From Isoetes taiwanensis (lineage: Eukaryota; Streptophyta; Lycopodiopsida; Isoetales; Isoetaceae): 64,000 nt of DNA. A model generated the notes under the pieces. It was not told the origin of the DNA. It saw only the letters and a program-made list of their open reading frames with translations, and ran no database searches. Made by a program: the position numbers and the translations under genes. The stretch covers positions 1,734,728 to 1,798,727 of the forward strand of contig JAJEKV010000022.1 in assembly GCA_021234155.1 (NCBI GenBank). The letters run 5' to 3'. This document shows positions 2,185 to 63,500 of the stretch, in pieces. Numbering within the stretch: the stretch's first letter is position 1; each line of letters begins with the position of its first letter.

Positions 2185-3412
2185 TTGACATGCTCATGGC
2201 GAGAGCCAAAAGCTTTTTGGCGTAAGGTGCGCCAGGTGGCTGGTAATGTAAGTGTGGGACAATGGATGCACCACTTGCAGGAGTTATATGACCCCCCAGG
2301 AGCTAATGCAAGGGTCCCGGATCAGGTAGGAGAGGTGCTGCAGCTCACGCGGGAGGATGTCCAGCAGGGTCTCAGGCATCTGGCGAATGGCAAGGCAAAG
2401 GATTTCTGTGGGCCGCAGTCGAATTTGTTGAAATGGGGTGGCCCATCGTGGTAGGGCCCCCGACGGTGATCATTAACTAGGCTCGGCGAGGGGCTCCCCG
2501 TGAGTGGATGGTTAGTAAGGTTGTTCCTGTGCATAAAGCTGGTAATACGGATGAGCCGGCGAATTACCGGATAATTATGGTAAGCTCGCTGTTTGCAAAG
2601 CTCCTGGCAGGGGTGGTGGAGAAGAAACTCACTAAGTGGGTCGAGGAGGCAGGGGTGCGGGCAATTGGCCAGGCAGGCTTTCGCCCCACTCCACGACTGA
2701 CCATATCTTCACTTTGAGAGTGTTGATGGAGGCAAGCCGGAATGCGCGACAGGACTTGTATTGCTGCTTTGTAGATTTTAAGACTGCATATGATACCGTC
2801 CCCAGAGACATGTTGTGGCAGAGGTTGCAAGAATTGCGTGTTCCACAGGAGTTGCAGAATGGGGTGCACCAGTTTTATGATGGGATTTATGCTGCACTGC
2901 CTTATGAAGATCGGCGGGTAGCTAGCACTATGGGAGTTAAGCAGGGCTGCCCGTTGTCTCCAATGCTTTTTGGGTTGTACATTGATGGCTTGGAGACGTG
3001 GATGCAGCACCATGGGGGAGCCGGGGTGCAATTATCTGAGGCGACCTCTGTGAGCCAGTTACTATATGCGGATGATGTAGCTTTGCTAGCCCACACGGCC
3101 AGCAGTATGCAGCAGCATTTGGATGCCCTCAGTGGGTTCTATGGGGCAACGGGAATGACAGTGAACTTGCACAAAACTAAGCTTCTCGCGATCCTGTCCT
3201 CGCAACACCCTATCCCGAAAGTTATATTGGGGGGGAGGAAGTGGAGATGGTGCGGAGCTTCAAGTGTCCGGGAATTGATTTCACTACTAACATGCCGTGG
3301 GATGAGTGTGTGGAGAGGAGAGCCGCGTGATTTGGAAGGCTTTATATGCGTGCAAAATGCGTGTTGCCGGATAGATCTCGTGGATCGGGCGAGGAGAGCA
3401 CACACCGTTTAG
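2185..3412 (+). pseudogene. LINE family A reverse transcriptase remnant
   Basis: This is the clearest domain of the element. In order: KVVPVHKAG followed by an NYRIIMV motif (2515-2580), AGFRP near 2676, VDFKTAYDTVPRDMLWQRL (about 2770-2828), GVKQGCPLSPMLFGLYIDGL (about 2935-2992), and the catalytic LLYADDVALLAH (about 3060-3093). The main frame is 2636-3412, with a frameshift near 2690. The Y-A-D-D box and the preceding QGCPLSP loop are standard for non-LTR RTs. It is truncated by frameshifts on both sides and is a pseudogene. Confidence 0.85.
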
Positions 3413-11299: not shown

Positions 11300-13530
11300 A
11301 TGGAAAATGAAGACCTTGAGCTCCAGCTTGCACTGCTGCAGATTCAACAAATGGTATGCCCAATTGGCTGATTCTGTCAGTAGATTTTTGGCGCTAATAA
11401 AGGAAGCTGTTTTTGGGTGCAGGAAGAAACCGTTGTCCATTATGGAATCACCTGCGAACACTGCGAATTGAACCCAATTATCGGTCCTCGATTTCAGTCC
11501 ATAGCGTAAGCCTCTGTTTTTCTGATCTGTAATGGCATCGAGCTGATCTGATTCTGGCCTGGAATTCTCTCAGGACGGACGGCTATGATCTTTGCCATAC
11601 TTGCTTTGAAGATCTTGGTGAAGCAGGCTCCAATTTCAAGCGCCATGATCAGGCTTCCCTGTTGCACCTTGTTGGCGAAACTCCACTCTTTTCTCCGTAT
11701 GACCATGTAAGTAAAATTTTTCATATCTTTAAAATCTAAAGCACGTTTAAAATCTAACCCACGTACTCATAGTGGGTTATTCTACGGGATGGAATCACCC
11801 ACCGTTGGGATTGCGCCATATCAGCATGACCAGGGTAACTTTATTGCGTTCCTTCGCTCTTCTGTCCTATTCAATTCTATTCTATTCTACACAACCTAGT
11901 TGCCTCTACATATTATATTTATGCCACGCAAGGGGCCAGGTGGGGGGCAACTCGCGAAGGCGGGGAGTTCACTCCCGAGCCTTGCATCTTGCCATGGGGC
12001 TTTTCTCAGACGTAAAATGGACTTCTGTTCAAATTCATCCTCATGTACAGTGATACTAATTTTACATGATTTAAAAATAATATAATTTTATATTAATCTC
12101 AATGAAAGTCCTTTTAATTTAATTAGTGAAAATGATTAATACGAAAGAATCTTGCCCTCGCTCATCTTACAATGCTTGTGCAACTTGAAGATCAAATGGT
12201 GAATGTAAAAGAAAGTTGCAAGGATTTTATTGGGTGACATATAGATTGTTCTCATTGTAATCATCACTTTCGTCTATTACTTTTATTTTGAAATTGCTCA
12301 TGGTCTGTTACTACTATTAGGTTCCTGCAAATTCTAGCTTATTTTCAAGAGAATTTATCGGCATGGCTGCTATTGCTTCAAGGTTTCCATCAGAATCATT
12401 CTTTAATATCCAAGCAAGGTGTGTTTCTGCTCGCTTACTAGCATCATATATTATACACAAGCGCTTATAACTTTGACCTAAAAGTTATCAATAGCAGGTA
12501 TATTATTGAATGCATGGATCCTAATCAATGGGCAATAGTGCTTTCCCCACATAATGCATATCAATCATGCATACTAGAAGAGATGATCGATTTATTGCCA
12601 GGTAACACGAACTTTCAACAAGTGAGTATGGCCATCAAAGCATTCATGACACTAAATCTACACGTGGAGTTAATAAGACTTCTAGAAAGAATGTTGCCTC
12701 TACAGTCTTCTATTGTTGGAAGACTTAATCTTGAAGATGTGCTTATTCTTGCCGCAATCACTGTGAATAGGAGCAAAGTGAAGGAGTTGATCAATATGTT
12801 AGACAACTTTTCACCGTTTATTGGGGATGTTGCTATGAAAGCCGAACTTTATGAGGAAGCATTTCTTATATTTTGCAAATTTCAACTTCACAAAGAGGCA
12901 CTCAATGTTCTTCTTGATGGTCTTAAAGACATAGAACGTGCAGTGGCATTTGCAGCTGACCTTAATGAACCAGATGTTTGGGATCAAGTGACTCAAGCTC
13001 AAACAAGGGGAATATGCATGTCACTCAACTCATTTACTCGTGCAAAAGATATATCAAAATTCAAAGATATTGTCTCAACTGCAAAAGATCATGGTTGCTT
13101 TGAGGATCTTATTAAATATTTACACATGGCACGTGAGAAAAGTGTTAGCGCAGAAGTTGATGAAGAGTTGATTTATGCGTATGCTAAACTTGATAAGTTT
13201 GGTGAGATTGAAGAGCTCATATCAAAAGCTAATATAGCAGCAGATTTTCAACGAATATCAGATAGGCTATTTGATGAGCAGTTGCATAAAGCCGGCCGAA
13301 TTGTCTTAACTTATAGTAATAGGACAATGCAAGCCCATGCAAGAATATCTAGGCCCCAAGAAGAAGAAGACTGTTGTTGCATATGTTTTGAACACTCCAA
13401 AGACGCGGCTTTGGTTCCGTGTGGGCATCGCATGTGTCAAGGTTGTGGCAATACGATCCTCCACAGTGAACGTAAAAAATGTCCTATTTGTGCACAAACA
13501 ATTGAGAAAGTAGTCATTTTGTATGGTTAA
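11300..13530 (+). CDS. ZZ finger - clathrin heavy chain repeat - RING finger protein (putative E3 ubiquitin ligase)
   Basis: Five exons: 11300-11353, 11423-11505, 11574-11706, 12321-12418 and 12498-13530. All four introns (69, 68, 614 and 79 bp) have GT-AG ends and phases agree, giving 466 residues. Residues 24-77 form an NBR1-like ZZ finger: C29-x2-C32, GPRFQS, YDLC53-x2-C56, H70, with the middle CxxC replaced by Ser44/Thr47. Residues about 113-395 match the clathrin heavy chain leg: IQARYIIECMD, VSMAIKAFM, ELIRLLERML, EELIYAYAK, EIEELI. Residues 416-454 are a C3HC4 RING: C416, C419, C431, H433, C436, C439, C451, C454, followed by EKVVILYG, as in XBAT/KEG-type RINGs. RINGs of this type recruit E2 enzymes and NBR1-type ZZ fingers belong to selective autophagy receptors, so a ubiquitin role on endomembranes or clathrin partners is inferred. 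The short first exon is the least certain part. No canonical AATAAA follows closely. Confidence 0.82.
11707..12320 (+). other. Intron 3 of the ZZ-clathrin-RING gene
   Basis: A 614-bp intron from GTAAGT to ...ACTACTATTAG, much longer than the other introns (68-79 bp). It holds a short TATTC-type run near 11872-11890 and a GC-rich block at 11925-12015 unlike the surrounding AT-rich DNA, so it may contain a small inserted element. It falls between the ZZ-coding exons and the clathrin-coding exons, exactly at the domain junction. Confidence 0.6.
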
Positions 13531-14212
13531 CATTGCTTCTACGAAGATGACACTCATTTGGTTATTGCCTGACTAGTCTACAAATGCAATTACATTCACG
13601 GATATTTGCCATGTTTAGAAACATATTCTTTGTTCTAGGTGAATATGAGTTTGTGAGTTCCAATCATACCAAGATTGCAACAACAAGAGAAAAATGTTGT
13701 CATGTATATATTAGATGGATAAATAGAACGAAAAACTACCATTAATGTTTTGTGAATTACCAAAAAATCACTCGAACAAAATAGCATTTTGTTAAATATA
13801 GTGATATAGTTTTTTTTTGTGGCACACCAAATCCAAAAGTTGTCTTCACAAAGATTATAGATTAGGATAAGATCTTTCCAACAAAATGGTATTTATGTAA
13901 ATTGGACTTTAAATTCACAAGTTATGCTCTTCAAAGTTATTTTTAATGCATTTATTTGAAACACCATAACTTGCAGTTTTCAACTCCATTTTGGATGATT
14001 TTTACTATTATCGAAAAGTTTCACCCTCTCATATTTAAGTTTTGTGAAGGCTACTTGATTATTGTTCATTCATTAAAAAGTTATTGTTGTTTTAGACAGA
14101 CACGTGGCTTTTGGTAATTTTTCCTAACATTAATAGTATTTTGGGAATCTTTTCTAAATAGAAATGATAAATCCACAAAAACCACCAAGTTCTATAGGAT
14201 GGTACAAGGAAT
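13531..14212. other. 3' flank of the fusion gene, no further gene
   Basis: Presumed 3' untranslated region followed by AT-rich sequence without open frames of note. I find no clear polyadenylation signal of the AATAAA type within the first 200 bases. Confidence 0.4.
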
Positions 14213-14454: not shown

Positions 14455-14765
14455 CCAGCTACGGTTAGGAAGTTATCGATCTTCAAAGTTGCTGTTGTGT
14501 AAATTTGTGACAGCAGAAGTTCAATGCATGTTTTACGTGATTTAAGCTTCGATTTTGCAAAACATGCCTCTAACACACTTTGTAGGGCAACTTGTGCCGG
14601 TTCTAAAATGTATTTACACTTGAAAAACAGAGCTATGGTTGGGAAGTTATAGCTCTTCAAATTTGCTGCTGTAAATCTTTGACAGTAGAAGCTCAATGCA
14701 AATTTTGAGGGATCTAAGCTTCGATTTTGCAAAATATGCCTCTAACACACTTTGTGGAGCATTTT
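14455..14765. repeat. Dimeric repeat, copy 1 (units A and B)
   Basis: Two related units, about 170 and 130 bp, each containing GTTGGGAAGTTATAG-like sequence, a CTGCTGT(G)TAAAT block and CTTCGATTTTGCAAAA(C/T)ATGCCTCTAACACAC. The pair recurs at 15195-15485 in the same order with units matched A to A and B to B. The dimer therefore existed before it was duplicated. Confidence 0.75.
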
Positions 14766-15194
14766 ATTAGCTTTTCAATGCATATTTAATCATTTGATTT
14801 GAGTATTCGCTGCTTTAGTTATCATAAAAAGTATAAGCATATCTATAAGTAGGTAGTTGCCCTTAAGTTTTTTATATGAGATCATAGCTTTACGTTAGCT
14901 TTATTTTATTTTCTAGCATGATGTACTCAGATTTGGCTCAAGGAAATATATACTTGAAAATTTCATGAGGCAGACATCTTCAATCAGTAAACAGAGATTC
15001 TCATTAGGAAATTATTAGCGTGATGTGGGAATGGTGTGATGCACTACAACTGAAAGGCGGCAACTCAATCTTGTTCAAATTTACAGGTTCTCTGGATTTT
15101 ACTCTTTTGCTACTTATTCTTAATGATATAACGTGATACAAAATGAGCTCGGCCCAATTAATCTGTAACCTTGTAGGCTGAAACTATATCCTTA

Positions 15195-15485
15195 TAGTGC
15201 TACTTGTGCCATTTCCAAAATGTATTTACACATCAAAAACAGAGCTACTGTTAGGAAGTTATAGATCTTCAAAATTGCTGCCGTAAATTTGTGACAGCAG
15301 AAGTTCAATGCATGTTTTAAGTGATTTAAGCTTTGATTTTGCAAAACATGCCTCTAACACACTTTGTAGAGCTATGGTTGGGAAGTTATAGCTCTTCAAA
15401 TTTGCTGCTGTAAATCTGTGACAGTAGAAGCTCAATGCAAATTTTGAGGGATCTAAGCTTCGATTTTGCAAAATATGCCTCAGCT
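15195..15485. repeat. Dimeric repeat, copy 2
   Basis: Second copy of the dimer at 14455-14765, with high similarity per unit. It is separated from copy 1 by about 430 bases without similarity. The minus-strand frames across it (for example 15259-15489) are repeat artefacts, not genes. Confidence 0.75.
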
Positions 15486-18400
15486 TCAATTTATTGTTGT
15501 TTCATTTCTTTTAATGCATAAAGTCTGAGTATGACTTATTCTATTCTTAAGTGGCAACCATGCAGGATTGGCTGATGTTCATGCCATTTATAATAAATGT
15601 CCATTCTGTTACACTCCAAATGTGCATGCATGATAGTGCACAGTTAGAAATAATTCATCACTACGGTGGAAGAAATATACATTAGATATTCCCTGAGTGT
15701 AGAAAGCCTATTGCAGCTTTTGAAGCTGGTATATTTTTGCTCTTTACACGTGGCACTATTTCTCTAAGTTATTACTTGAGTATCAGGTTGCAGCAAAGCA
15801 AGGCCTTTAGTCCTTGCGTGTTCTTCCTATTGAGCTCCAGGATGCATTTCATGTTCATATTTGTCATTATCTAGCTCCAGGGCTAAGAGTCGTAGATGAT
15901 GTGAAAAATATCATAGTGTTTCAGTTTATACTAGAGCTACAAGGATTAAAGATGAGGATCCACCACACATTCTACACGTCAATCCAAGGTTGAAAGGGGA
16001 CTGAAGTGGAAGAGGTAATGGGTCATTGCACAACACTGTTTAGGCTGGGTATCTCCAGATGGCGAGGATCCAGGTTATCTAATTTTTGGCCTTTAAAAAT
16101 ATGTGGGTTTTTTGTTTATTCACCAAAATGCATAGCCTGCATACTGTTGGATAGTCCGTTTCTATGGTGTAGTTATATTCTTTTCCTTGTGTTTTGTAGT
16201 TGGACTAGCAAAATGCCAAAGGTGGATCCAAAATGAAAATGAGACATCATCGGATTCTAAGTCAACATGGTGGAACAAGTTAATTGGACAGTCTACACAG
16301 AAAAAACAGTGGATCTCGGAACTCTGACAGCTTGGATTTTATAAGGTTAGGTGCCAGACACCAAATCGGATTGTTCTACATTCATTTTTTCTGTAACATA
16401 TTAGTTTTTTTGTAAGGATTGCTCGAAAAAAGCAATGACAAATTGGGCATGCACATGCATTAATTTACTCAATGTTTTTGTTGTAGATATTTTTGGTTCA
16501 GGAGTCTTGGTAAATCAGGAGCACCAGTGTCAAGGCAAGCCGAAATCGATATGACCTATTTCATTATTCGACAAAGATGGCAACCCTAGAATTCCTTAAG
16601 TAAACACTGCTATCTGAATTATGCATATAATTGCATGGTAGGTAGCAAGATTTGATGTGCTGCACTTTGAACTTTCAGGGAACAAATTAGAAGAAGGGCG
16701 GAAAGAAGCAGAAAATTTAAGAATTTCCTTTTATGTGGGATACCTCATTGAAAGCCATCAAGTTTAATAATTGGTATATTTTTTGTTCAGATTAAGGAAG
16801 AAGCAAAGTTTTTGGCAAGACGGATTCAGAACATTGGTGGCTTTTGCTCATAACTGGCCGTAACATTAAGTGCAGACTTTGGATCTGTCTCTGTGTGGAT
16901 ATTCTTCCTAAGAATGTATATTTTAATTTTAGGATGCTTTTCCATCTATATTGTCATTTGTGTTTTTTTTCTGTTACAAACAGAGTAGCGTCAAGGCCAG
17001 GCAAATGCGTAGGCATTGGAGCATCTGCCCTTTGACATTGCATTCCTTTTTACATAACAACAATAGTATGCTAGTCATTCCTTTAAGGCAGTCATTTAAG
17101 GAACGTCCAAGACAAAAATTTAAAGAAGGCGGTGAGATCATGCATTTAATGTTTTGACACCTTCAATGGTTTATTACGTGAATCACTTTTATGCTAATGC
17201 ATCAAGCTTTGCTACAAAAAAATACAAAAACAAAATATGAATCATTTTGAAAGTGTAAGTTGTGCCCCAACCTGGTCAATCATGTTATCAAGGTCTAGAG
17301 TTCGAAATCTCAAGGTTAGCTTATCAACACAATGACTTCAACATGTCAACATTGTGATCTATTGCCATCATGTTTCTTGCACATCATTTTCTGTTTGCTT
17401 AGAACATATTCAACATTCTTAGTTTTTCGTACTACTTCAGATGTTTGGCCTTGAGAACATATCTTGTGGAGTGAGCCTTTTGATTCGGTCTAGGCGCTAG
17501 CAAAAAGCAATTTTAGATATACCTTATGGCATTTGACTTATGGCTTTAAATCTAATATCAACTTTGGAAGTGCTACAGATTTATATGAAAAAAATATGAT
17601 GCTCGTTCAGCTTTATTTCATTACCAATATCTGGTGCTTTTGGAATTTGAAATGGAAATCCTTTTAATTTTGAGAAAGAGGCGAGTTGCTGATGAGCATC
17701 ATGAAGTCGTACTCATGCATGGTAATCCTTCAACATTGTAAATTACTACAGGCTACATTAAGGGACGATATTTAAAGTGTGATTTAAATCTTTGCTAATG
17801 GCTTATCAAACCCTTGAGCGTCTTCAAAATGAAGCATTTCAAAGGAAACATCATCTCAATGATGGATAGTTCTTTTTGAAGAGGAGCATTTGAGGAGCTT
17901 TTGCAGGCATTTGAGGAGCTTTGCAGGCAAGCTACACTATCCATAACATGTTTTGTGTTCTGCATTACCGTCATCAATTTTACGAAGCGCTGTTACATTT
18001 TAAATCTCTTCATTTGGATGGCACGTGTATGATCTTTTAGACAAGCTTAGAATTTGTTGGTATCAATATTTTCACTTTCAGAGACATTTGCATTTGATGC
18101 CTTCCTGATGCCTTTCTAAGTAAAATGAATGTCTTACTATCTTATGAACTCACAAAATGCAAAAAAAATGATGTCCAGCCATTGAAATTCAACACTTCCA
18201 ATATCTTTGGACTTTCATTTCAAGCAGACACTAAGTTGACGGAATAGGCAAGGTCACAATGAGGATGATCTTGGTACTAATATAAAAAAGTTGCAAAGAC
18301 AATCTATGGCTAAACGCAAATGCATTTTGAGGTGCATCACATATTAAGGACAAAATGCAAAAACAATAATGTTCAACTATGGAAATTAGGGAAGATACAG

Positions 18401-29012: not shown

Positions 29013-29030
29013 TTGGATTGTTGAAGGCAT

Positions 29031-29340
29031 TTTGGAGCCTAGGTGGCATGTTTGAGCCACCTTGGCATGTTGGAGCCCACGTGGCATGTTTGAGCCACCT
29101 TGGCATGTTTGAGCCGCCTTGGCTTGTTTGAGACTAGGTCGCATGTTGGAGCCTAGGTGGCATGTTGGAGCCCACGTGGCATGTCTGAGCCACCTTGGCA
29201 TGTTGGAGCCTAGGTGGCATGGTGGAGACCACGTGTCGTGTTTGCACCACCTTGGCATATTGGAGCCTAGGTGGCATGTTGGAGCCTGCATGGCATTTTG
29301 GAGCCTAGGTGGCATGTTTGAGCCTAGGTAGCATGTTGGA
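29031..29340. repeat. 19-bp minisatellite, about 16 units
   Basis: Unit consensus GTTGGAGCCTAGGTGGCAT, repeated head to tail with variants such as GTTTGAGCCACCTTGGCAT and GTTGGAGCCCACGTGGCAT. The variants alternate rather than drift evenly, so higher-order duplication occurred. Three units contain CACGTG, the plant G-box core. It lies exactly between the broken integrase and the CACTA terminus. As 19 is not a multiple of three, frames across it are artefacts. Confidence 0.9.
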
Positions 29341-34563: not shown

Positions 34564-37500
34564 TCAGATCATCCAATTCATTGGGCCCATAGTCTGTTGA
34601 ATCCAGTAAATACATGATCCAGGAATCCCGAACATCTTCATGAATTTTGAGTTTGGGGCTTGGAGGTAAGGCTTTATCTCCGGATTGAACCTCCAAAGAT
34701 CTTCGACCTCCAGCACTCGAGTAAAAGTAATGCAACTGATGACCTCTGTTTTAAGCCAGAAAAGGGCATCTATGGTCTCCATAGCTGATAAACGGCAAGT
34801 GGCAGGGTCTACCTCATGGGCATGTCCTCCCGCATGATGCCTCCTCAGCAGAAGCTCTGTCAAACAAAGAATCCACATCGTTAAAAAGGAGAGAGAAAAT
34901 TTGAAAGAAACCATTAAAGGTTCCCAAGGAGTCCTATTGTCTGTCATAATTCAAGCCCTTTTTTGCCTTGTGTGCCATGGCAGCCTCAGCTAGTAGGACC
35001 TGAAAAGAAGCTTTAAGTTTATTCAAACTTGGGGCCGATCCTGTGATGGCTACCTCATTCCTATGTTTCCATATAGCCCAGCAAGTTAAAGTCCGAATGG
35101 TCCCCTTGAAAGGGGAGCTCTGATTTAGGTAATGTAGCAAAGAAGCCTCATCAGAGGGAGTTTGTTGCACCATGGGCTGGATCCACTGCCAGAAAGGGGA
35201 TAACCAGGGACAGATAAAGACATGTGAACTATTTTCCCTTGAACCACAGCCCATGGGGCATAAATCTAAGATTTGATTGTTAAACTGAGCCCTGAAGCCG
35301 TTTGTTTTAAGGTTTTTGTTCAACAAAAGCCACCTGAAAAGCCCAATTTTATTAGCACATTGAAGCTTCCATCCCCATCTTATAAGTGTGATAGCTAAAT
35401 CCTGCTGGCAATCCCAGGCTCTGCTTATCCAAAAGCAGGCTATAAATTTTGGAGACTTTGTATGCATGTTCACCACATATCCAATTTTGAACACCATTAG
35501 CATGCCCCACTGGGTTCCTAGTTAGAGCAGCATAAATACTTCTATTTGTATCAGTGTCTGCCAGTATTGAAGCTAGATCACACCAATCTTTCCAATTGTC
35601 ATTGTTTTTCATATCACCAATGGTGTGAAGATCTGCATGGCACCATTCTTTATATTTTAGAGGTGTTTCAGAGCCAAACAACCATCCTCTTCTTCGACTG
35701 TCCTGATGCCAAAAGAATCCAAAGTCATCACTAATTGAACTTAGAGGCCGAGCTCTAAAACAAGGGGATGCCTGATTCCATGCAGAGAAAATTCTTTTCA
35801 GAATTTTGGATGTACCAGGAGCAGATTTGAGTTGGAAGAAAGCAGAGTCAGGGAGTTGATGAGGGAGAGAAGGTGGATGTTTCCCCCAGCCAATATTTTA
35901 CTAATTTTAGAGCTGGTGAGGGGGCATTGGACATCAAAGATCTCCAGACTAATTTTGCAGCTAAGGCTTGATCTTGGACAAATAGGTCTTTGCAACCTAA
36001 GCCCCCTTCTCTTTTGGGCAGAGTCAGATTATCCCAAGATACCATTCTGGCACCTTGCCAAATATAGTCCCTCATGGCTGACTCTAATTTTCTATAAGAA
36101 GCTTTATCAGCAATGATGGCAGAGGAGAAGAAAATATGAGTGCTTGCAATCACACTATTAACAATCTCAACCCTTCCTGCAAGAGAGAGGGATTTTGGAT
36201 ACATTTGTATTTTTTTCTTCATCCTGTTGACAATGGGATCTCATAAACCTGTTAAGTTCATATTGATTGCCAAAGGAAGGCAGCAATTTAATAGCAGTTC
36301 TATGACCTGTGACCTTTATGCCATGAATCTCCTCTTCTTCTGATTGGAGGACAATAGTGCTCTTATTTTTGTTCAATACAACTCCAGAAGCCCCCCCAAA
36401 CAGATTTAACATCTGCAGGAAATTTGGAAGGCTGGTTCCATCATTTTGAAGGAAAGCAAATGTATCATCTGCATACTGCATAATTGAGAATTCTCCCAAG
36501 TTTTGAGGCAATTAGAGACATTTGATTTCATTTGCAGCCAGAAGAGACAATGTAGCCCTCGTGACCATTTCAGCAACTATCAGGAATAGATAGGGGGCTA
36601 GGGGGCAGCCCTGCCTAACCCCTTTTTTACATTCAAAAAACTTAGATGGGGTGCCATTCACTAATACTGCTGAACAACCAGTGACATTCAAATGTAAACC
36701 CTGCTAATAACTTTGTCAGAAAATCTCAGTTGTGCCATTGCTTTGTATAAAAATCTCCAATGAATGGTGTCATAAGCACGTCTGAAATCCAATTTGACCA
36801 TCATACAATTTTGTTTGGATTCTTCCAGGAAGAAAAGCAGACTGAACTGAGCTGATGATCTTCTGCAAGGTCTCTTTGATTCTGTTTTCTAGTATCTTTG
36901 CCAAGATCTTATAGGTAGCATTAGTGAGAGAAATTGGTCTCCAGTCAGAGAATGAAGCAGGAGCATCTACCTTGGGAATAAGGGCAATTAATCCAGCATT
37001 TATAGCAGGGTGAAGCTTAGGAGCAGACCATGCTCCCTGAATGAAGGTGGTAACATCCTGCTTTAGAATATCCCAAAAGGCAACCAAAAACTCAAGGGGG
37101 ATACCATCAGGGCCAGGGCTTTTCCCACTTGCCATGCCTTTGATTACCTTCTCAATCTCTGTTTCAGAAGGACATTCTAGGAGGTGTGTGTCATCTAGAG
37201 CATTGTCAGCTGGTCCAAGCTTATCAAAGAAAGTCTGGAAGCTGTTTTCGTCCACCTCTTCATGAGCAAACAGATTACTGTATTTCTCATGAAAAACTTC
37301 AATAGGTTTTCCTGGCCTGCTATGACTTGATTTCCATCTGAAATGGAGATGATTCCATTGTTCATAATCCTCCCTTTGGCAGTTTTGAAAAACAACTTGG
37401 AGCTGCATCTGCACATTTGCTTTTGACTATTAATCCTCGAGCCTCTGACTCCTCAATGTTCTTAACTTTCCTTTCAAGAACTTCCTCCTCCTGATGTAAC

Positions 37501-42492: not shown

Positions 42493-43076
42493 TGTTAGTC
42501 CCGTGCCTCCTGGTACAGGACTATTCATGCATACGACGGACCAGGTCAAGGCCAAGGATCCACAATCAGGCGCAGGTCAGTCGTCAAAGGCTCAGCAGAA
42601 GACCAGGCAGACCACGCAGACAAAGACCACGCCTGGCGTCAACAAGAGGCGGCGCTCAGACAAGTGACGGCCCGTCACCGCCCGCGTCAGCGTGATTTCA
42701 GGCTTTTCAAGAGGCACCGCCAGCATTCCTGCAAATCAGGCCTCCTTCCAGGAGTCGGCACCGAAATCAGTCAGAGTGTCTATATTGGGCCAAAGGCCAC
42801 TGTACTATATATATGAGTAGAGCTAGCACATGAGTTTTTAGATGAGTTTTGAGTCTTGTCTCATTTCAGTTTTCTCTCGATTGCGAGAGCTCAGGTATCT
42901 TCATTGACATCAAGGAAGCTTATTATTGTGATCTCATTGTTTTCTTTTGTTTTCTTTTCCATTTCCCTTGTTTTTCTTGCAAATCCCGCGTGACATAGCT
43001 CCCGGATTCTCCTGTTAGATCCAAGGGTCCTCACAGAGGGCTGTCTTGCAGAGTTCCCGAACCCAGACCCCAAACA
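42493..43076 (+). repeat. 5' LTR
   Basis: 584 bp, TGTTAG...CCCAAACA. A TATA-like TACTATATATATGAG lies at about 42814. The last 250 bases are almost identical to the 3' LTR, while the first 330 differ at many sites, mostly CG in the 3' LTR against CA here. Confidence 0.92.
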
Positions 43077-43077
43077 C

Positions 43078-43093
43078 TGGCGCCGCTGCCGGG
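43078..43093 (+). other. Primer-binding site, tRNA-Asp type
   Basis: TGGCGCCGCTGCCGGG, one base after the LTR end. Plant tRNA-Asp(GTC) ends in ...CCCGGCAACGGCGCCA, so the site matches with one mismatch. This sets the start of minus-strand DNA synthesis. Confidence 0.85.
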
Positions 43094-43117
43094 TCTGATC
43101 TTTCTTTTCTTTCCATC

Positions 43118-46100
43118 ATGTCTGCTCGAGGTTTCACTCCTGAAGAACTTCTTTGCCAAACGGCGGCTCGACTGGAGCGCCATCAACGACGCGAGGCTGT
43201 TCGGGATATGTATGACACTGCTTATGACATTGAGGGAGGTCGTATCCGCTCCCGTGCTCAGTCGGCACCTCCTACCCCTCGTGCTCATTCTCGACCAGGG
43301 TCTCCCCCTGTGTGTCGCCATTGCTCACAACCGCAGTCTCCGCAACATACCCCTGTTCAGCCCACGCCTCATTATTTTCAGACTCCTGACATCACCTACA
43401 TAAATATCCCTTCAGGTCACACCCCTCAGCCATCCCAACCATCTTCTCCTCCTGCTGGAATGGGCTACCATCATGTCACCTTTGGCCCTTCCTATGTTCA
43501 TGGCATTCCAACTTCTCCATCTTTTCAGCACGCTCTTCCTGTTTATCAAACCACAGATCTCAAGCCTCATGAGGACGGCTCTCAAGGCCCTTCCCCACCA
43601 GATGCTACTTTTTATGGCCCACCGGGTTTTTCAGGCCCACCCCCTTGCACTCAGTCTCAGGCAGTCCCACCTCTATATGCTTCTGCATATCCTCAATCAA
43701 ATCCACCTGTCTATGCTCAAGTTCCGCCTTCATCCCCCACTCAAAATTTGAAGCTGACTTATCCCACTTTTGGCAACACCAAAGGCAAACCTCTGGATCA
43801 GAGTGCTTCGGCACACATGGAGGAATTTGAAGCCTTGGCCATTCTGAATGGTCATGCTCAGCTCCAACTTAAATTTCATATCTTTTCGACCACGCTCAGA
43901 GGCGCCCCTCATCAGTGGTTAATGGCCAACAAAAGTCACTGGAAACAGAGTTGGCAAGAAATAAAAACTGCCTTTCTGTCTCATTATGGCACCACGAATG
44001 ATGATCAGTTACTCCTTAAGCAACTCAATGACCTTCAACAAGAGCCCACGGAGTCCGCCAGGGATTTTGCGGACCGTCTTCACATTCTCGTCAGCAAACT
44101 CCAGGAGTACCCTACGCAAAGCCAGATCCTCGTCTGGTTTCTGCAGGGCCTTCCTCCTGCCATTCGCCTTATGACAGAATACCTGCGTCCAAAGTCTTTG
44201 GAGCAGGCCATTGAATTGGTCAATCATTCGGTCAATGTTTCCTCTCGAGGTGTTGCTCTCCAGGAACTCCCTTTCATGCCCCCCGTCATGGTTCCTCAGA
44301 ACTCTGTTCAACCTCAGCAAGCAAATCCACAACGCGCTCACATCTGGTGTACTATTTGTAAATATCAAGGTGATCTGGCAAATGAATGCAATGCCTCCAA
44401 TGGACCTCCTCATTGTAAAAGATGCAATATGTGCAATCATGCCACGGAAGAATGCACGCGATCTCATCCTACACCTTTTCGTAATAAAATGGTCTTTCAA
44501 GTCCAGACCACCCCTCAACAACAACCCTCCTATCTGCCTCAGCAATATCAAAATCAACAACCGCAGCAGTATCAACAAACACAGCAATCTCAGCAGCCAC
44601 GGGGACAAGGCAATCGTCCTCCCTTTGATCCTTCAAAAGCTCAATGTTATCATTGCCATGAATGGGGTCACACCACCACGGCGTGTCCTCAGCTTCCTCA
44701 AGTTCAAGTTCAACTTCCGGGTTCCAATCAACTAGCTTCTGTCCGTCTTACGGCTTATCAACTCTGGGTGGCCAACGGTAAACAGGGCCCTCGTCCCGTT
44801 TTGAGAAAGCCTCCTCGACCGCCTCAACAACAGCGCCCTCAGCAAGCAGTGTCTACTTCCAATCCTATGGATCAACAAGCTCATGAGGAGATTTATCAGG
44901 CTCTCAACCCTCCTGTCCAACAGTCCAATTGGGTTGGTCTTGTCTCGCATCACACTCGGGCTTCACGCCCTTTGACCATCATTCCTTATGACATGCAACC
45001 TGCTTTTGCTGTGGAAACTGTCCCTCATGAAGATGATAAAAAAGTTCACTTCACACCTGATCTTGACAAACTGATGCCTCACGTCATGCCTAAAGTGAGA
45101 CAAAGTATTCTGAAACTCATGCAAGCTGCGGAAGGTCGAACCTTGGCAAATGTTCACGCCACCACCCGGGCTCAGCAGCGTGAGGCCGCACCGTCATCAT
45201 CCACCAGTGCACGCTCTCAGCCATATATAAATATTGCTGCTGAGGTTGAGCTTCTCAAAGAAGTCTCTGCTTCCTTACCACAGTCCCCAGCTCCATTGGA
45301 CCCTGCAGATCCCTTTTCACATGTTCCTTTGGAACTTCAGGAAGAACTTGCCAAGATCAAGTTTCCTTTGAGCCTAGCCACCATTTTGAAACGCTGTCCG
45401 GCTCTCAAAGATCAGTTACCTCTTCCCACGGTTCTGGTTGGAGCTGTTGCCACTTCAACACCCACGGTGCATGCCACGGTGGGCAATCAACATATCAATC
45501 ATGTCCAGATTGATGGTGGTAGTGCTGTCAATCTCATTACTGATAAATTCCGGAAGCACTTGGGCATCAAACAATTATACCGTGCCCCTTATGACATCAA
45601 GTTGGCCAATGGCCATATCACGCGTCCTCAAGGCGTCACTCCTCTTCTCCATATCAGCATTGGTGATCTCAAATTCCCCTTGGAATTTGGTGTTTGGAAA
45701 GCTGGAGAAGACCCTGGTGACTATGAAATGCTGGTTGGACGACCTTTTCTCCGACAGGCCAAGAGTATTCATTACTGGGCCACGGACCAACTTGTTATCA
45801 CTGATGGCCATCTCAATGCCACCATGGATCTGGAAACTGGCCAACTGATCTCTGTCGAGAATGCTGAATCTTCTATCTCTGACACCGACTCTGACGACGC
45901 CCAAAATATTTATCAGGTTCAAGCACCTCCAGCGGGGCTCCCTCTCTCATCTTATCCTGAGTATGCTGATCCTTGGGGTTACATGACGCTCGATCAGGAC
46001 CAGGCTGTGGCTGCTCTTTTGGACCCTTACCTGGCTTCCTGCAATCGCATTCAACGACTTGATCATTTTTTGGACCCACTTTCTTCTTCAGAGACAGTTG

Positions 46101-46123
46101 ATGTACATGCCGTCATGAAGTAA
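43118..46123 (+). CDS. Gag-protease polyprotein of the Ty3/gypsy element
   Basis: One open frame of 1001 codons, taken from the first ATG after the PBS (MSARGFTPEELLCQTAAR). The N-terminal 230 residues are rich in Pro, Ser and Gln. A retrotransposon gag domain follows (LTYPTFGNTKGKPLDQSASA, TTLRGAPHQWL, FLSHYGTT, ARDFADRLHILVSKL). Cysteine motifs come next: CKRCNMCNHATEEC, then a clean CCHC knuckle CYHCHEWGHTTTAC (about 44644-44690). The protease has VQIDGGSAVNLI (about 45500-45540), a DGGS variant of the D-S/T-G active site, then GRPFLRQA. The frame ends at TAA 46121-46123; in-frame coding continues beyond, so the stop either is a mutation or is suppressed. Confidence 0.88.
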   Translation: MSARGFTPEELLCQTAARLERHQRREAVRDMYDTAYDIEGGRIRSRAQSAPPTPRAHSRPGSPPVCRHCSQPQSPQHTPVQPTPHYFQTPDITYINIPSGHTPQPSQPSSPPAGMGYHHVTFGPSYVHGIPTSPSFQHALPVYQTTDLKPHEDGSQGPSPPDATFYGPPGFSGPPPCTQSQAVPPLYASAYPQSNPPVYAQVPPSSPTQNLKLTYPTFGNTKGKPLDQSASAHMEEFEALAILNGHAQLQLKFHIFSTTLRGAPHQWLMANKSHWKQSWQEIKTAFLSHYGTTNDDQLLLKQLNDLQQEPTESARDFADRLHILVSKLQEYPTQSQILVWFLQGLPPAIRLMTEYLRPKSLEQAIELVNHSVNVSSRGVALQELPFMPPVMVPQNSVQPQQANPQRAHIWCTICKYQGDLANECNASNGPPHCKRCNMCNHATEECTRSHPTPFRNKMVFQVQTTPQQQPSYLPQQYQNQQPQQYQQTQQSQQPRGQGNRPPFDPSKAQCYHCHEWGHTTTACPQLPQVQVQLPGSNQLASVRLTAYQLWVANGKQGPRPVLRKPPRPPQQQRPQQAVSTSNPMDQQAHEEIYQALNPPVQQSNWVGLVSHHTRASRPLTIIPYDMQPAFAVETVPHEDDKKVHFTPDLDKLMPHVMPKVRQSILKLMQAAEGRTLANVHATTRAQQREAAPSSSTSARSQPYINIAAEVELLKEVSASLPQSPAPLDPADPFSHVPLELQEELAKIKFPLSLATILKRCPALKDQLPLPTVLVGAVATSTPTVHATVGNQHINHVQIDGGSAVNLITDKFRKHLGIKQLYRAPYDIKLANGHITRPQGVTPLLHISIGDLKFPLEFGVWKAGEDPGDYEMLVGRPFLRQAKSIHYWATDQLVITDGHLNATMDLETGQLISVENAESSISDTDSDDAQNIYQVQAPPAGLPLSSYPEYADPWGYMTLDQDQAVAALLDPYLASCNRIQRLDHFLDPLSSSETVDVHAVMK

Positions 46124-48120
46124 CCCTTGCTTGATGACGCTCAGCAGCCTCTTTTCTTCACGACGCAAAATGCTGCTCCTCCCGTCATGCTTCAGCCTCA
46201 TGCTCATCACGTTCAGGACACGGAGGTTGTTCCTCACATTCAAACTCCCGAAGTGGAAATAGTGGACATTGGAAACAATCAACCAGTCCGCTTAGCTGCT
46301 AAACTTCCACCTACTTATAAAGCATGAAATTCAAACATATTTTTGCTTGGAGCTATAAAGACCTTCGAGGTATCAAAAAAGAATTGGGGGAACTCACCAT
46401 TCCTACCAAACCTGATGCACGCCCAATCTAGCAATGACAGTACAGGCTCAACCCAAATTACCGTGACCGCGTCAAGGCTGAAATTGACAAACTCTTGGCT
46501 GCTGGCCTGATTTATGAGGTCAAACATTCTGAATGGGTGAGCCCCATCGTCATTGCTCTCAAACACAATGGTAAGATCCGCGTTTGCGTGGATTACAGAA
46601 AACTCAATCAAGCCACGGAGCGTGATCACTTTCCGCTTCCCTTCACTGACCAGGTTCTTGAAGAGGTTGCTGGTCATGAGATGTACTCTTTCATGGATGG
46701 TTTTTCAGGGTACAATCAAATTTCTATCAAGCAAGAAGATCAACTCAAAACTACCTTCACCACCCCGTGGGGCACTTTTGCCTACAAGGTGGTCCACTCT
46801 CCTTCAACTTTTCAGCGCATCATGCTCTCCGTATTTCACGACTTTATGAAGGATAAACCTTTTCTTCAGATCTTTCAAGATGATTTTTCTGCCTACAGCT
46901 CCATGGATGATCATTTGGACAAATTGGAGCTTGTCTTTCAAAAATGTGATGAATCTGGCATTAGTCTCAATCCTGAGAAGTGCACCTTCTGCGTCACCTC
47001 AGGCGTTCTGTTGGGTCATGTGGTCAGTAAAGAAGGCATCACCACGGATCCCGCTAAAATCAGTTGCGTACTGAAAGCTCATGCACCGTCAAATATCAAA
47101 GAGACACGCTCTTTCCTGGGTAAGGTGAATTACTATTCCACCTTCATTCTTGGACTTGCAGCTATAGCTGACCCCATTCATAAACTCACGGGTGATGAAT
47201 CCACTTGGGCTTGGAATCCCCAAGCGGAAGCTGCTTTTCAGAGGTTGAAGCTGTTACTTACTCAGGCCCCGGTACTTGTTCCTCCTAAATGGGACAAGCC
47301 CTTTCATGTTCATGTTGATGTCTCTGCCTTTGCCATTGGTGCTGTTCTCTCTCAGGCCTATGATGACACCACGGATAAACCAATCCGCTATGCCAGCCGG
47401 AAACTCAATCTTGCTGAGCGCAACTATTCTGCCACGGAACGGGAAGCCTTAGGCTTAGTCTTTTGTGTCCAACGTTTCCGACATTATTTGATGGGAAGCC
47501 AGATCAAGTTCTTTGTTGATCATCAAGCTCTTCTTTATTTGATCAACAAAGCCACGCCCACGGGACGCATTGCTCGCTGGGTCCTTCTTCTGCAAGAGTT
47601 CGCTCCCTTCGAAATTGTTCATAGGGCAGGCAAATCTCATGTGGTGCCTGATTATCTTTCACGCATCCACACGGATGATCCCTCCACGGGTGTTTTTGAC
47701 ACCTTTCCAGACGCTCAATTGTTCCTGGTCACGGCCACGCCCCATTGGTTTCACAACTTTCAGCAATATCTTCTCACTAGTGCTCTTCCTCCCGCCGATC
47801 CGATGCTCTCTCCAGACAAGCCGGCTCCCATGCCGTCGGTTTCTCAGAAGTCCGTGACTATACCATGGTTGCAGGCCATTTGTATAAACGAGGCAAAGAC
47901 ATGGTCCTCCGTCGTTGTGTCCTTCCTCATGAGGTGCCCAATATCGTTCGACAAGCCCACGATGGGCTTGGTGGTGGTCATTTTAGTGGTGACGCCACGG
48001 CGCACAAAATTCTTTTGGCAGGATACTTCTGACCCACGCTCTTCAAAGATGCCCACACTTATGCTCGCGACGTGTGGCGTCGTCGGCGTGGGAAAGCCCA
48101 CGTGGCGGCTCTTCCATTGA
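46124..48120 (+). pseudogene. Reverse transcriptase-RNase H region of pol, frame-broken
   Basis: After the TAA at 46121 the gag-pro frame stays open to 46327, then coding shifts by one frame at about 46324. RT motifs: CVDYRKLNQA, YSFMDGFSGYNQISI (first catalytic Asp near 46696), and the FQDD box (46873-46884), a variant of the more usual YxDD/FxDD. Then SFLGKVNYYSTFI and, for RNase H, VHVDVSAFAIGAVLSQ (about 47310), YSATEREALGLVFCV and DHQALLYLI. Two TAG/TAA-type stops lie at 46429-46440. A further frameshift near 47840 leaves the C-terminal 90 codons of this frame as nonsense. Not functional as it stands. Confidence 0.85.
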
Positions 48121-60523: not shown

Positions 60524-63500
60524 ATTTAAATTGAATACTAGATGGTTGCCTAATGAGGAGTTTGAAGCAGGATGTCAGGAGGCTTTGCAAAAGGCTTCAT
60601 CTCAACAACATGGTATGCGAAGAATTGTTGAGGCTTTGGCAAATGTCAAGATTTTTGCGAAAAGGTGGGGAGCGCAACGAGTTCGTGAAGAAAAAGAGAC
60701 ATTAAGTAAGTTATATGCTGAATTAGAGGAGCTTAAGAAAGTGGGTACGGACTCTTTTAGATTGCAACAGGTTATTGATGCTATTCGTGGTCTTGAAGTG
60801 GCCCAAATTCAATCAGCATGAGTTAAGTCTGGATTAACCTGGCTGAAAGATGGAGATCGTTGTAATAAGCTGTTTTTTAGAGCTTCAAAGCAGAAGAGGT
60901 ATGCAGCTACTATGCACTCTTTATCTCTGCCGGATGGGAGGGTAATGACAGAGCCAAATGAGATTAAGCAGTCCCTTACTCAATACTTTGAAACTTTTTT
61001 TAAGGTCAAACACTTGCCTCATGAAGATGTAATGCAGGATATTGTGCTTTCTAAGGTTCATGCAATTCTTTCACAAGAGGAATCTCAATTGTTAGAGGCC
61101 CCACTGTCCATGTCCGAATTTGCGGAAAGCAACATTTGAGTTGGCTTCAGATAAATGTCCAGGTATGGATGGTATCCCTGTAGAAGTTTTTAAAAGGTAT
61201 TGGGAATGGACGTCAGTGAGCATTATGGAGGCATACAAAGATTTGTGTACTTCACATCAATTTGATAGGATTTTGAATACGGGTTTGATTTCTCTTATTC
61301 CTAAAATGAAAGAACCTGTGAGCATTCATGATTGGCGCCCAATAACTCTTCTATCTACTATTTATAAAATTATTGCAAAAGCCTATGCAGAAAGACTTAA
61401 ACAGGTTTTGGGATTGAGAATAGATGCGGCTCAGTCAGGCTTTCTTCCAGGTCGGCAAATTTTCCATAATATAGTGGCAGCATATGAAGGAGTTCATTGG
61501 GCCCAATGTTCAGGCCAAAATCTTCTATATTTAAAATTGGATTTTGCTAAAGCTTATGATAGTGTGAAGTGGACTTTCTTGGATGCCATGTTTTTGAAAT
61601 TGGGATTTGGGTCTGGTTTCCGATCTATGATGCATAAAATGTTGATTTCTGCTAAGGGGGTAGTACTGTATCATGGAGAACCATTGGTGCTTTTTCCAAT
61701 TGAACGTGGAATAAGGCAAGGTTGCCCTTTAGCTCCTTTTTTGTTTACTATAGTGGCAGAAGGACTTTCGCAACTATTGCATGAGGCTGAAAAGGATGGT
61801 TTGGTAAAGGGATTATTATTGGTGGAAGGTGAATAGGTTTTGGTTAATCAGTTTGCAGACGATACCTTCTTGCTAGTGGATGGTGAAGAGAATAATGTGC
61901 AGATAATCAAAAAGATTTTGGATATATTTTCAATTGCATCTGGTTGTCTCCTTAATTGGGCTAAGTGTAGTGCTTTATGGGTGGGGAAGGAAGCAGTTCC
62001 GCATTTTTTATATGAGTATGCCTGGAAGGTTGTTGTACCATCTGCAAAGATAAAGCTTCTAGGAGTCCCCTTTGGTCTAGATATTGACATGAATGAAGCG
62101 TGGGATGAAATTATCTTAAATTTACAAAGGCAACTGGTTTGGTGGAGAGGTTCAAAGTTATCCTTAGCAGGTAGAATTCAAGTAGCTAAGTCAGTATTGA
62201 ATAATACGCATATTTATTTGGTTTCGGTTCTATTGGCTCCAGCTTCCAAGTTTGCAGAGATAAAAAAGATTGTAAGAGATTTTGTCTGGTGTACCGATCA
62301 AGGAGGCACTGTGAAGGTGGCGTGGAAGAAATGTATGTTGTTTAAACAACAAGAAGGACTTGGTATGTTGGATCTTTCTTTACAGGGTAAGGTCTTAGCT
62401 TCTAAGCTATTGTTCAGTTTGTTGAAAGATGATTGTGCATCACCAGGTATGAAGTTACTTAAACAATCAGTAAAGAAGTGTATGGTTTTTCATAAGCGAG
62501 GTGTGGGAATCATAAGCGAGGTGTGAGAATTGAGATTCCTTGGGCATTGTTATATCCATTGAAAGCTTATTCACATGCCTCTCCAGTACTGAAAGGCTTG
62601 CTTCGGGCCTGGAAGGTAGTCCAGCAGGTGATTACATTTGATTGGAAAGCTTGTCTCCAGGCATCTTCCCCCTTTTTGTGGTTGCCTTTGTATACTCATG
62701 GACAACTACACCCAGTTGTAGAATTTATGCATGCGCATTCCCAAGCGAGGTGGAGGAGAGCAGGTATTATTTCTATTGAACAGTGGTATTTTGGTATTGA
62801 CATTGCTCCTTGGCAATGGTTTTGTGGAGACATATGGGTTGTTGGATAAAGATATCAAGATATGGGCTTATGTAGCAAGTGCTCTTCCTCTAATTAAGAA
62901 GGTGGGTAACAAGAGATCTTTGGAACTTTGTTCAAGGTATTAAAGAAGGCAAGAAGCTAGTAAGTTCATGCTACAGATTGCTTACCTCCTCAAGTACTTT
63001 ATCACCTTCTCGAAAATGGCACTTACAGACTTTGCCTTCTCAATGGCAATCCATCTGGAACCTTGTTTGGTCTAAATATAATCCTCCAAAGGTAAATGTT
63101 TTACTTTGGCAGGTGATTCATCGCTCTTTGAGAGTTAATGAGATGGTTCATCGCTTTTAAGCGGGAGTAAGCCCACTTTGCCCAATGTGTGAGTGGTGCA
63201 TTGAAACATTGGAGCCTTTGTTTATATTTGTGTGCAGCGGTGAGTAGTCTTAGGTCCCGGGCCGCATTCTCTTTTGGAGTATCTTTGGATAGTCAGCACT
63301 TTCTTTTGGGTATTTATCCAAATCAGTGGACTGCTTCTAAAAGGATTGCATTTCACATGACAAAGTCTTGGCTAATATGGAGTGTATGGAAGCGAAGGCG
63401 AAGAAAGGTCTTTTATGATAAGCGTATTTCTTCTCAGGTGGTGCTTCAAGAAATTCGTAAGAAGTTGTATAATTGCTTTCAGATCTTCAATTGGCCTGAT

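Follow-up and report, generated by a model that had tools for sequence, protein, structure and literature searches.

We describe a gene of the quillwort Isoetes taiwanensis that is probably a protein-coding chimera, made at the DNA level from an NBR1 ZZ finger, part of the leg of clathrin heavy chain (CHC) and a RING finger at the C-terminus, and whose product, as read from its sequence, would be a cytosolic RING-type ligase with a CHC scaffold. The gene lies in a 64,000-nucleotide stretch of contig JAJEKV010000022.1 (hereafter the window). CHC-RING is the constrained part of the gene and the part shared with its two relatives in the same genome, and the ZZ finger is one of three front ends.

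Results

Gene structure and reading frame

Five joined exons (window 11300-13530; Table 1) yield 466 codons and a stop in a single frame, with introns that are all GT..AG and fall in phases 0, 2, 0 and 2; the original prediction of a five-exon gene with consistent phases and no internal stop is therefore upheld. The CHC homology starts in exon 4, about eight residues upstream of intron 4, which places that intron inside the CHC piece, and because the CHC alignment crosses it, the junction of exons 4 and 5 is backed by homology as well as by frame. In exon 5, G+C content is biased by codon position (0.51, 0.33 and 0.30). When neutral drift of this exon to 53% identity was simulated, stops accumulated to a mean of about eight, and none of 1,000 runs remained stop-free; because of this result, and because a CHC-RING relative has an intact frame, the open frame of the window gene is more than chance. 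Pfam has no match to residues 1-26, and a ubiquitin-interacting motif considered for residues 1-18 from its consensus was dropped on that ground.

Table 1. Features of the chimeric gene, in window coordinates (L008, L010 and L011 are CHC loci of the same genome; C192 carries a relative of the gene)
Feature	Position	Strand	Description
Exon 1	11300..11353	+	Start codon and 18 residues (MENEDLELQLALLQIQQM); open frame, GT donor
Exon 2	11423..11505	+	ZZ finger, first half; Pfam ZZ 24-59; end equals the NBR1 exon end, phase 2
Intron 2	11506..11573	+	68 bp, interrupts the ZZ finger; counterpart is the 69-bp phase-2 intron of the NBR1 ZZ
Exon 3	11574..11706	+	ZZ finger, second half, and linker with GETPLFSPYDH end; linker common to the C192 pre-CHC exon
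Intron 3	11707..12320	+	614 bp; in-frame TAG immediately 5' of exon 4
Exon 4	12321..12418	+	Linker, then start of CHC homology (..SFFNIQAR); CHC alignment from residue 115; counterpart exon in C192
Intron 4	12419..12497	+	79 bp, phase 2, splits an Arg codon; shared with CHC genes L008 and L010; absent from copy L011
Exon 5	12498..13530	+	CHC leg (residues 123 to ~396), linker, RING (416-454), stop
RING and C-terminal tail VVILYG	13366..13527	+	Residues 413-466; Pfam zf-C3HC4_3 413-461

A clathrin leg segment with a clathrin intron

Residues 115-396 align to residues 937-1219 of solved CHC chains (E 1.1e-55), and the Pfam Clathrin profile scores 119.6 bits (cut-off 29.6; best stretch 160-295), bearing out the roughly 280 residues of CHC leg that had been read from the sequence. 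The match comprises homologous leg repeats and an intron shared with the genome's own CHC: in the two CHC genes read, at loci L008 and L010, an intron splits the same Arg codon (QAR|Y) in phase 2. Unlike CHC itself, the window protein covers only about 280 of 1,675 residues, has neither propeller nor hub and is not a full triskelion leg; CHC 937-1219 ends before the light-chain region and the trimer hub.

The genome holds its own CHC loci (L008/L023, L009/L024 and L010/L025). The window segment is 47% identical to the CHC of L008; for comparison, a pair of diverged CHC genes in the genome shares 72%. Among protein hits, the nearest to the segment by identity is a plant CHC, P0008 (named as Smallanthus), at 50% over 193 residues; in a tree of 15 rows the segment forms a very long branch (1.35-1.39) whose placement is unsure. 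It keeps 32 of 47 CHC-invariant residues and has lost 15, compared with 92-100% kept by each of the 14 CHC rows in a leave-one-out test, and those kept show no hydrophobic or polar bias (24 of 34 hydrophobic, 8 of 13 polar or Gly, counted by hand). Measured against seven CHC rows, 0.56-0.65 of its substitutions have a BLOSUM score of at least 0, where neutral runs average 0.45-0.49 (s.d. 0.04), with some CHC rows falling within the simulated maximum. The CHC fold seems constrained and CHC identity relaxed.

An origin of the CHC piece as a retrocopy is ruled out by the CHC intron, which both the window gene and its relative on C192 have kept and which the processed-looking copy L011 lacks. Nor does the long single exon 5 point to retroposition, because CHC loci L023 and L024 each match as one unbroken tblastn piece over the equivalent stretch. 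L011 (L026, on C1046), which also carries a stop codon, is probably a processed pseudogene. CHC fragments at L013/L031 (C913), L014 (C266) and L015 (C985), each with one TGA and 51-52% identical to the window protein, are perhaps a single dispersed fragment.

The ZZ finger and its NBR1 counterpart

A ZZ finger had been predicted at residues 24-77; the domain is present (28.9 bits, cut-off 21.4), with a shorter extent, its profile match stopping at residue 59. Its proposed NBR1 type also holds. The NBR1 gene of the same genome (C1027:7226774; L038), in which Pfam finds PB1, ZZ and NBR1 Ig-like domains, has a ZZ 45% identical to that of the window protein over 53 residues, and its ZZ intron, at FKSIK|K, is equivalent in place and phase to intron 2 at FQSIA|T. 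ZZ fingers have two zinc sites, including a Cys pair after RF; this middle pair is absent from the window ZZ, where Ser and Thr take both places in an alignment with HERC2, and it is also missing from the genome's NBR1. What sets the two proteins apart is that NBR1 carries PB1 and NBR1 Ig-like domains, neither of which Pfam matches in the window protein. Because the donor introns of both the NBR1 ZZ and the CHC match in position and phase, the two pieces were most likely copied as genomic DNA, introns included.

The ZZ fingers of PRT1 and MIB1 are among the PDB matches of the window ZZ, ranking after HERC2. The N-degron ligase PRT1 and Mind bomb likewise combine ZZ and RING within one ligase, but they differ in domain order and in their middle part, and they have no CHC. 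Searching the genome with the ZZ part gave 15 matches: exons of the window gene itself accounted for three, the remaining 12 were 33-48% alike, and no ZZ was located in the relatives on C192 and C1035. Because it was found in only one of the three family members, the ZZ may have a dispensable or a new role in the window protein.

The RING finger

The zf-C3HC4_3 profile scores 42.2 bits (cut-off 27), and eight ligands assigned by hand from the Cys/His list (C416, C419, C431, H433, C436, C439, C451 and C454) have standard C3HC4 spacing, so that the RING predicted at 416-454 is complete. The last ligand is followed by Ala455, and the basic linchpin is absent; a basic residue at this place occurs in many active RINGs and is not universal. 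Y465 lies at +11 from the last ligand, and the chain terminates at +12; in the dimeric C-terminal RINGs of IAP and MDM2 such an aromatic residue contacts ubiquitin across the dimer. Close RINGs occur on C930 (58%) and in P0015, a C2H2 protein. The C930 locus (L027:3346-5883, minus strand) is an 845-residue open frame that closes with a RING, making it a possible donor or sister; its ankyrin match falls short of the cut-off.

Two relatives with other front ends

The genome searched here has 1,110 contigs and a total of 1,658,258,908 bases; the assembly published for Isoetes taiwanensis measures 1658.30 Mb, with 204 scaffolds, 909 contigs left unplaced and a scaffold N50 of 17.40 Mb (PMC8566536). 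The exon 5 product has 15 matches in the genome searched (41 of 41 candidates scored). CHC and RING occur together in three (the window gene, C192 and C1035:2657296). L008-L011 are longer CHC matches that lack the RING, L013, L014, L015 and L018 are short CHC fragments bearing stops, and L012, L016, L017 and L019 match the RING only. Among the 40 candidates scored out of 231, the only DNA match to 11300-12420 elsewhere in the genome was a short dispersed repeat of intron 3.

The C192 relative (C192:88376-90511) matches the exon 5 product over its whole length at 61% amino-acid identity, with its CHC-RING half intact. Its three exons encode 593 residues, and exons 2 and 3 match window exons 4 and 5. 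By hydropathy alone, exon 1 begins with a signal-peptide-like leader (peak 2.0 for 19 residues from 16); an ectodomain follows with sequons at 48, 74 and 89 (another, at residue 5, lies ahead of the leader), then a predicted membrane helix (peak 2.52 from 173-174) and a linker with a GETPLFSP end. The ectodomain (L020:5843-6511, minus strand) has no match in Pfam, PDB or NCBIfam. At 180,576 bases, C192 probably belongs among the unplaced contigs.

What ties the ZZ exon to the CHC-RING exons most strongly is the linker, which shares its exon with the second half of the ZZ and makes separate transcripts for the two unlikely. The window and C192 linkers match with a score of 54, which none of 5,000 shuffles reached (maximum 43), and in both genes the linker exon ends with a phase-0 donor and is followed by the exon-4 homologue. 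In six-frame translation GETPLFSP occurs once in the window and once in L020 (C192); it is absent from L021 (the C1035 copy), from L023 and L025 (CHC) and from L038 (NBR1).

The C1035 copy is 93.8% identical in nucleotides to window 12889 to 14025 over 1,140 aligned bp, about 495 bp of which lie past the stop codon. At the protein level it corresponds to the last 213 codons, the second half of CHC-RING, with 87% identity to residues 130-342 of the exon 5 product. The join falls inside a short shared stretch, CACAAAGAG, in frame with a kinase/GH18-like protein, giving a 909-residue ORF with Pfam Pkinase, Clathrin and RING matches and a match to GH18 chain 6igy (E 1.1e-4). About 6 kb away on the opposite strand, C1035:2647390-2649495 matches the front part of this chimera at 55%; because the match fills 702 of the 751 residues of that neighbour's ORF, the ORF has no room for a CHC-RING tail in frame. 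We infer that the C1035 protein gained its CHC-RING tail through copying at the DNA level. The front part itself (L021:5211-7940) belongs to a large family, with at least 111 matched pieces including itself (65 of 466 candidates scored) and open frames of up to 1,030 residues.

Selection

Between the window gene and C192, dN/dS is 0.429 for the CHC part (bootstrap 0.295-0.618; dS 0.571, dN 0.245), 0.386 for the RING (0.152-0.877) and 0.437 for the whole (0.315-0.606). Against a CHC gene the ratio is 0.286 (0.166-0.414), at a dS of 1.42 that is near saturation (1,976 of 2,000 bootstrap runs usable). Against the young C1035 copy it is 0.995 (0.488-2.914), with no sign of constraint. A ratio near 1, which the original prediction had named as evidence against the gene, is therefore seen with the young copy, and the older C192 comparison shows constraint.

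With C192 used to polarise 35 differences between the window gene and C1035 (sites gapped in C192 were dropped), five fall on the window branch (three nonsynonymous, two synonymous), 19 on the C1035 branch (15 and four) and 11 could not be assigned (nine and two). Relaxation on the C1035 branch relative to the long-term ratio is not significant (Fisher p 0.32, or 0.14 when all 37 differences are counted). At 100 differing sites of the CHC part, the window protein keeps the CHC state at 31, C192 at 15 and neither at 54. The window/C192 pair was under long-run purifying selection on both CHC and RING; the recent interval is too brief for a verdict.

Searches beyond the genome

Queried against one collection of 5.8 billion protein sequences, the full window protein matched 16 proteins at E <= 0.001 among 7,999 scored: 15 with a Clathrin domain and one C2H2-RING protein, with ZZ listed for none. 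In the same collection the ZZ region drew 59 candidates with no match at E 10, and the RING region three candidates with no match at 0.01. That one collection yielded neither another ZZ-CHC-RING protein nor an orthologue from another species, in a search that needs exact shared words and may miss orthologues that are distant or unlisted. Scans of viral contigs and of genome contigs returned no relative, and tblastn on plasmids returned none; NCBIfam gave weak matches only, and Rfam had no match in the window. Judging by titles and the beginnings of abstracts, we found no paper that deals with a chimera of the CHC-RING or ZZ-CHC kind. The order ZZ-CHC-RING, unfamiliar when the gene was first read, was not met elsewhere and so appears new within the searches made.

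Genomic surroundings

Retroelements surround the gene: reverse transcriptases lie at 2636-3409 and 61096-61833, a weaker match at 36773-37426 falls just short of its cut-off, and Ty3-type gag and RT-RNase H lie within 43019-48117. Within intron 3, an 81-bp repeat (11772-11852) that occurs once in the window recurs at 96-100% identity in at least 39 other places in the genome, with at least five more shorter or weaker matches, each beside one of these and in opposite orientation (40 of 231 candidates scored); the intron has no Rfam match and no unusual fold. Downstream of the gene, 14457-15499 is repetitive, with units of 38, 90 and 181 nt that each occur three to four times. An ORF encoding Tf2-1-like and integrase C-terminal domains is overlapped at its upstream end by a tandem array (29026-29340) with 19- and 57-bp periods.

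Discussion

The architecture suggests how the product may work. The window protein would act as a cytosolic RING-type ubiquitin ligase in which the CHC segment could serve as an alpha-solenoid arm holding a substrate or adaptor, the RING, probably dimeric, would recruit E2-ubiquitin, and the N-terminal module, the ZZ here and the membrane anchor in C192, may set its place or target. Vps11 and Vps18, components of HOPS/CORVET, are built in the same way, as a solenoid followed by a C-terminal RING, and offer what may be the best analogy for its action. The solenoid of the window protein differs in being CHC by sequence (Clathrin 119.6 bits, versus 24.5 for Vps41, cut-off 27, and 13.1 for Vps11). 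Both Vps proteins are reported as E3 ligases (PMC6478910). A HOPS-type Vps protein is itself ruled out as the identity of the window protein, whose best matches are CHC and whose Vps profile scores are below cut-off; in C192, Vps41 reaches 27.9 bits, just above the cut-off of 27 and far under the 116.3 bits of Clathrin.

Whether the CHC piece still deals with clathrin is the point on which readings of the product diverge. It could pack on coat legs or bind CHC partners while the RING ubiquitinates coat components or blocks assembly, making the protein a clathrin-directed ligase or decoy, and the segment is indeed unmistakably CHC, with two-thirds of the CHC-invariant residues in place (32 of 47). 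We consider this unlikely, given 47% identity to the genome's own CHC where two diverged CHC genes still share 72%, the loss of the other 15 invariant residues, and a segment that stops short of the light-chain region and the hub. Because of the missing light-chain region and hub and the lost residues, the piece is more likely a scaffold with partners of its own than a working clathrin leg. A bolder proposal, that CHC-RING is an exchangeable quillwort ligase cassette, shuffled as DNA onto an NBR1 ZZ, a membrane-anchored ectodomain and a kinase/GH18-like protein, and that it acts on clathrin-coated membranes or, as an integrated decoy, protects clathrin, we regard as more doubtful still.

Other readings question the gene itself. 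It might be a decaying chimera, a functionless open frame left by gene shuffling, as the near-neutral ratio against C1035 and the retroelements nearby would allow; that seems improbable beside a window/C192 ratio whose upper bound is 0.606 and 466 codons with no stop, and only five of the 35 differences from C1035 lie on the window branch, against 19 on that of C1035 and 11 unclear. Least probable of all, to the point where we give it little weight, is a division into two genes, with exons 1-3 encoding a small ZZ protein and an ATG in exon 4 or 5 starting a CHC-RING protein. No ZZ was found in any other member, and an unspliced reading beyond exon 3 does close with a stop at 11739, but GETPLFSP ends the ZZ exon just as it ends the pre-CHC exon of C192, there ahead of the exon-4 homologue, and the phases agree. 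A single coding chimera, with a ligase as its probable product, remains the reading that we favour.

Such a gene would represent a new ligase architecture with two donors, NBR1 and CHC, still recognisable by their introns in the same genome, with one relative that has a different N-terminus and one later copy in which the last 213 codons are fused in frame with a different protein. Provided that its product is active, the gene would offer a natural case of a clathrin leg segment working outside the coat, a housekeeping solenoid turned ligase scaffold.
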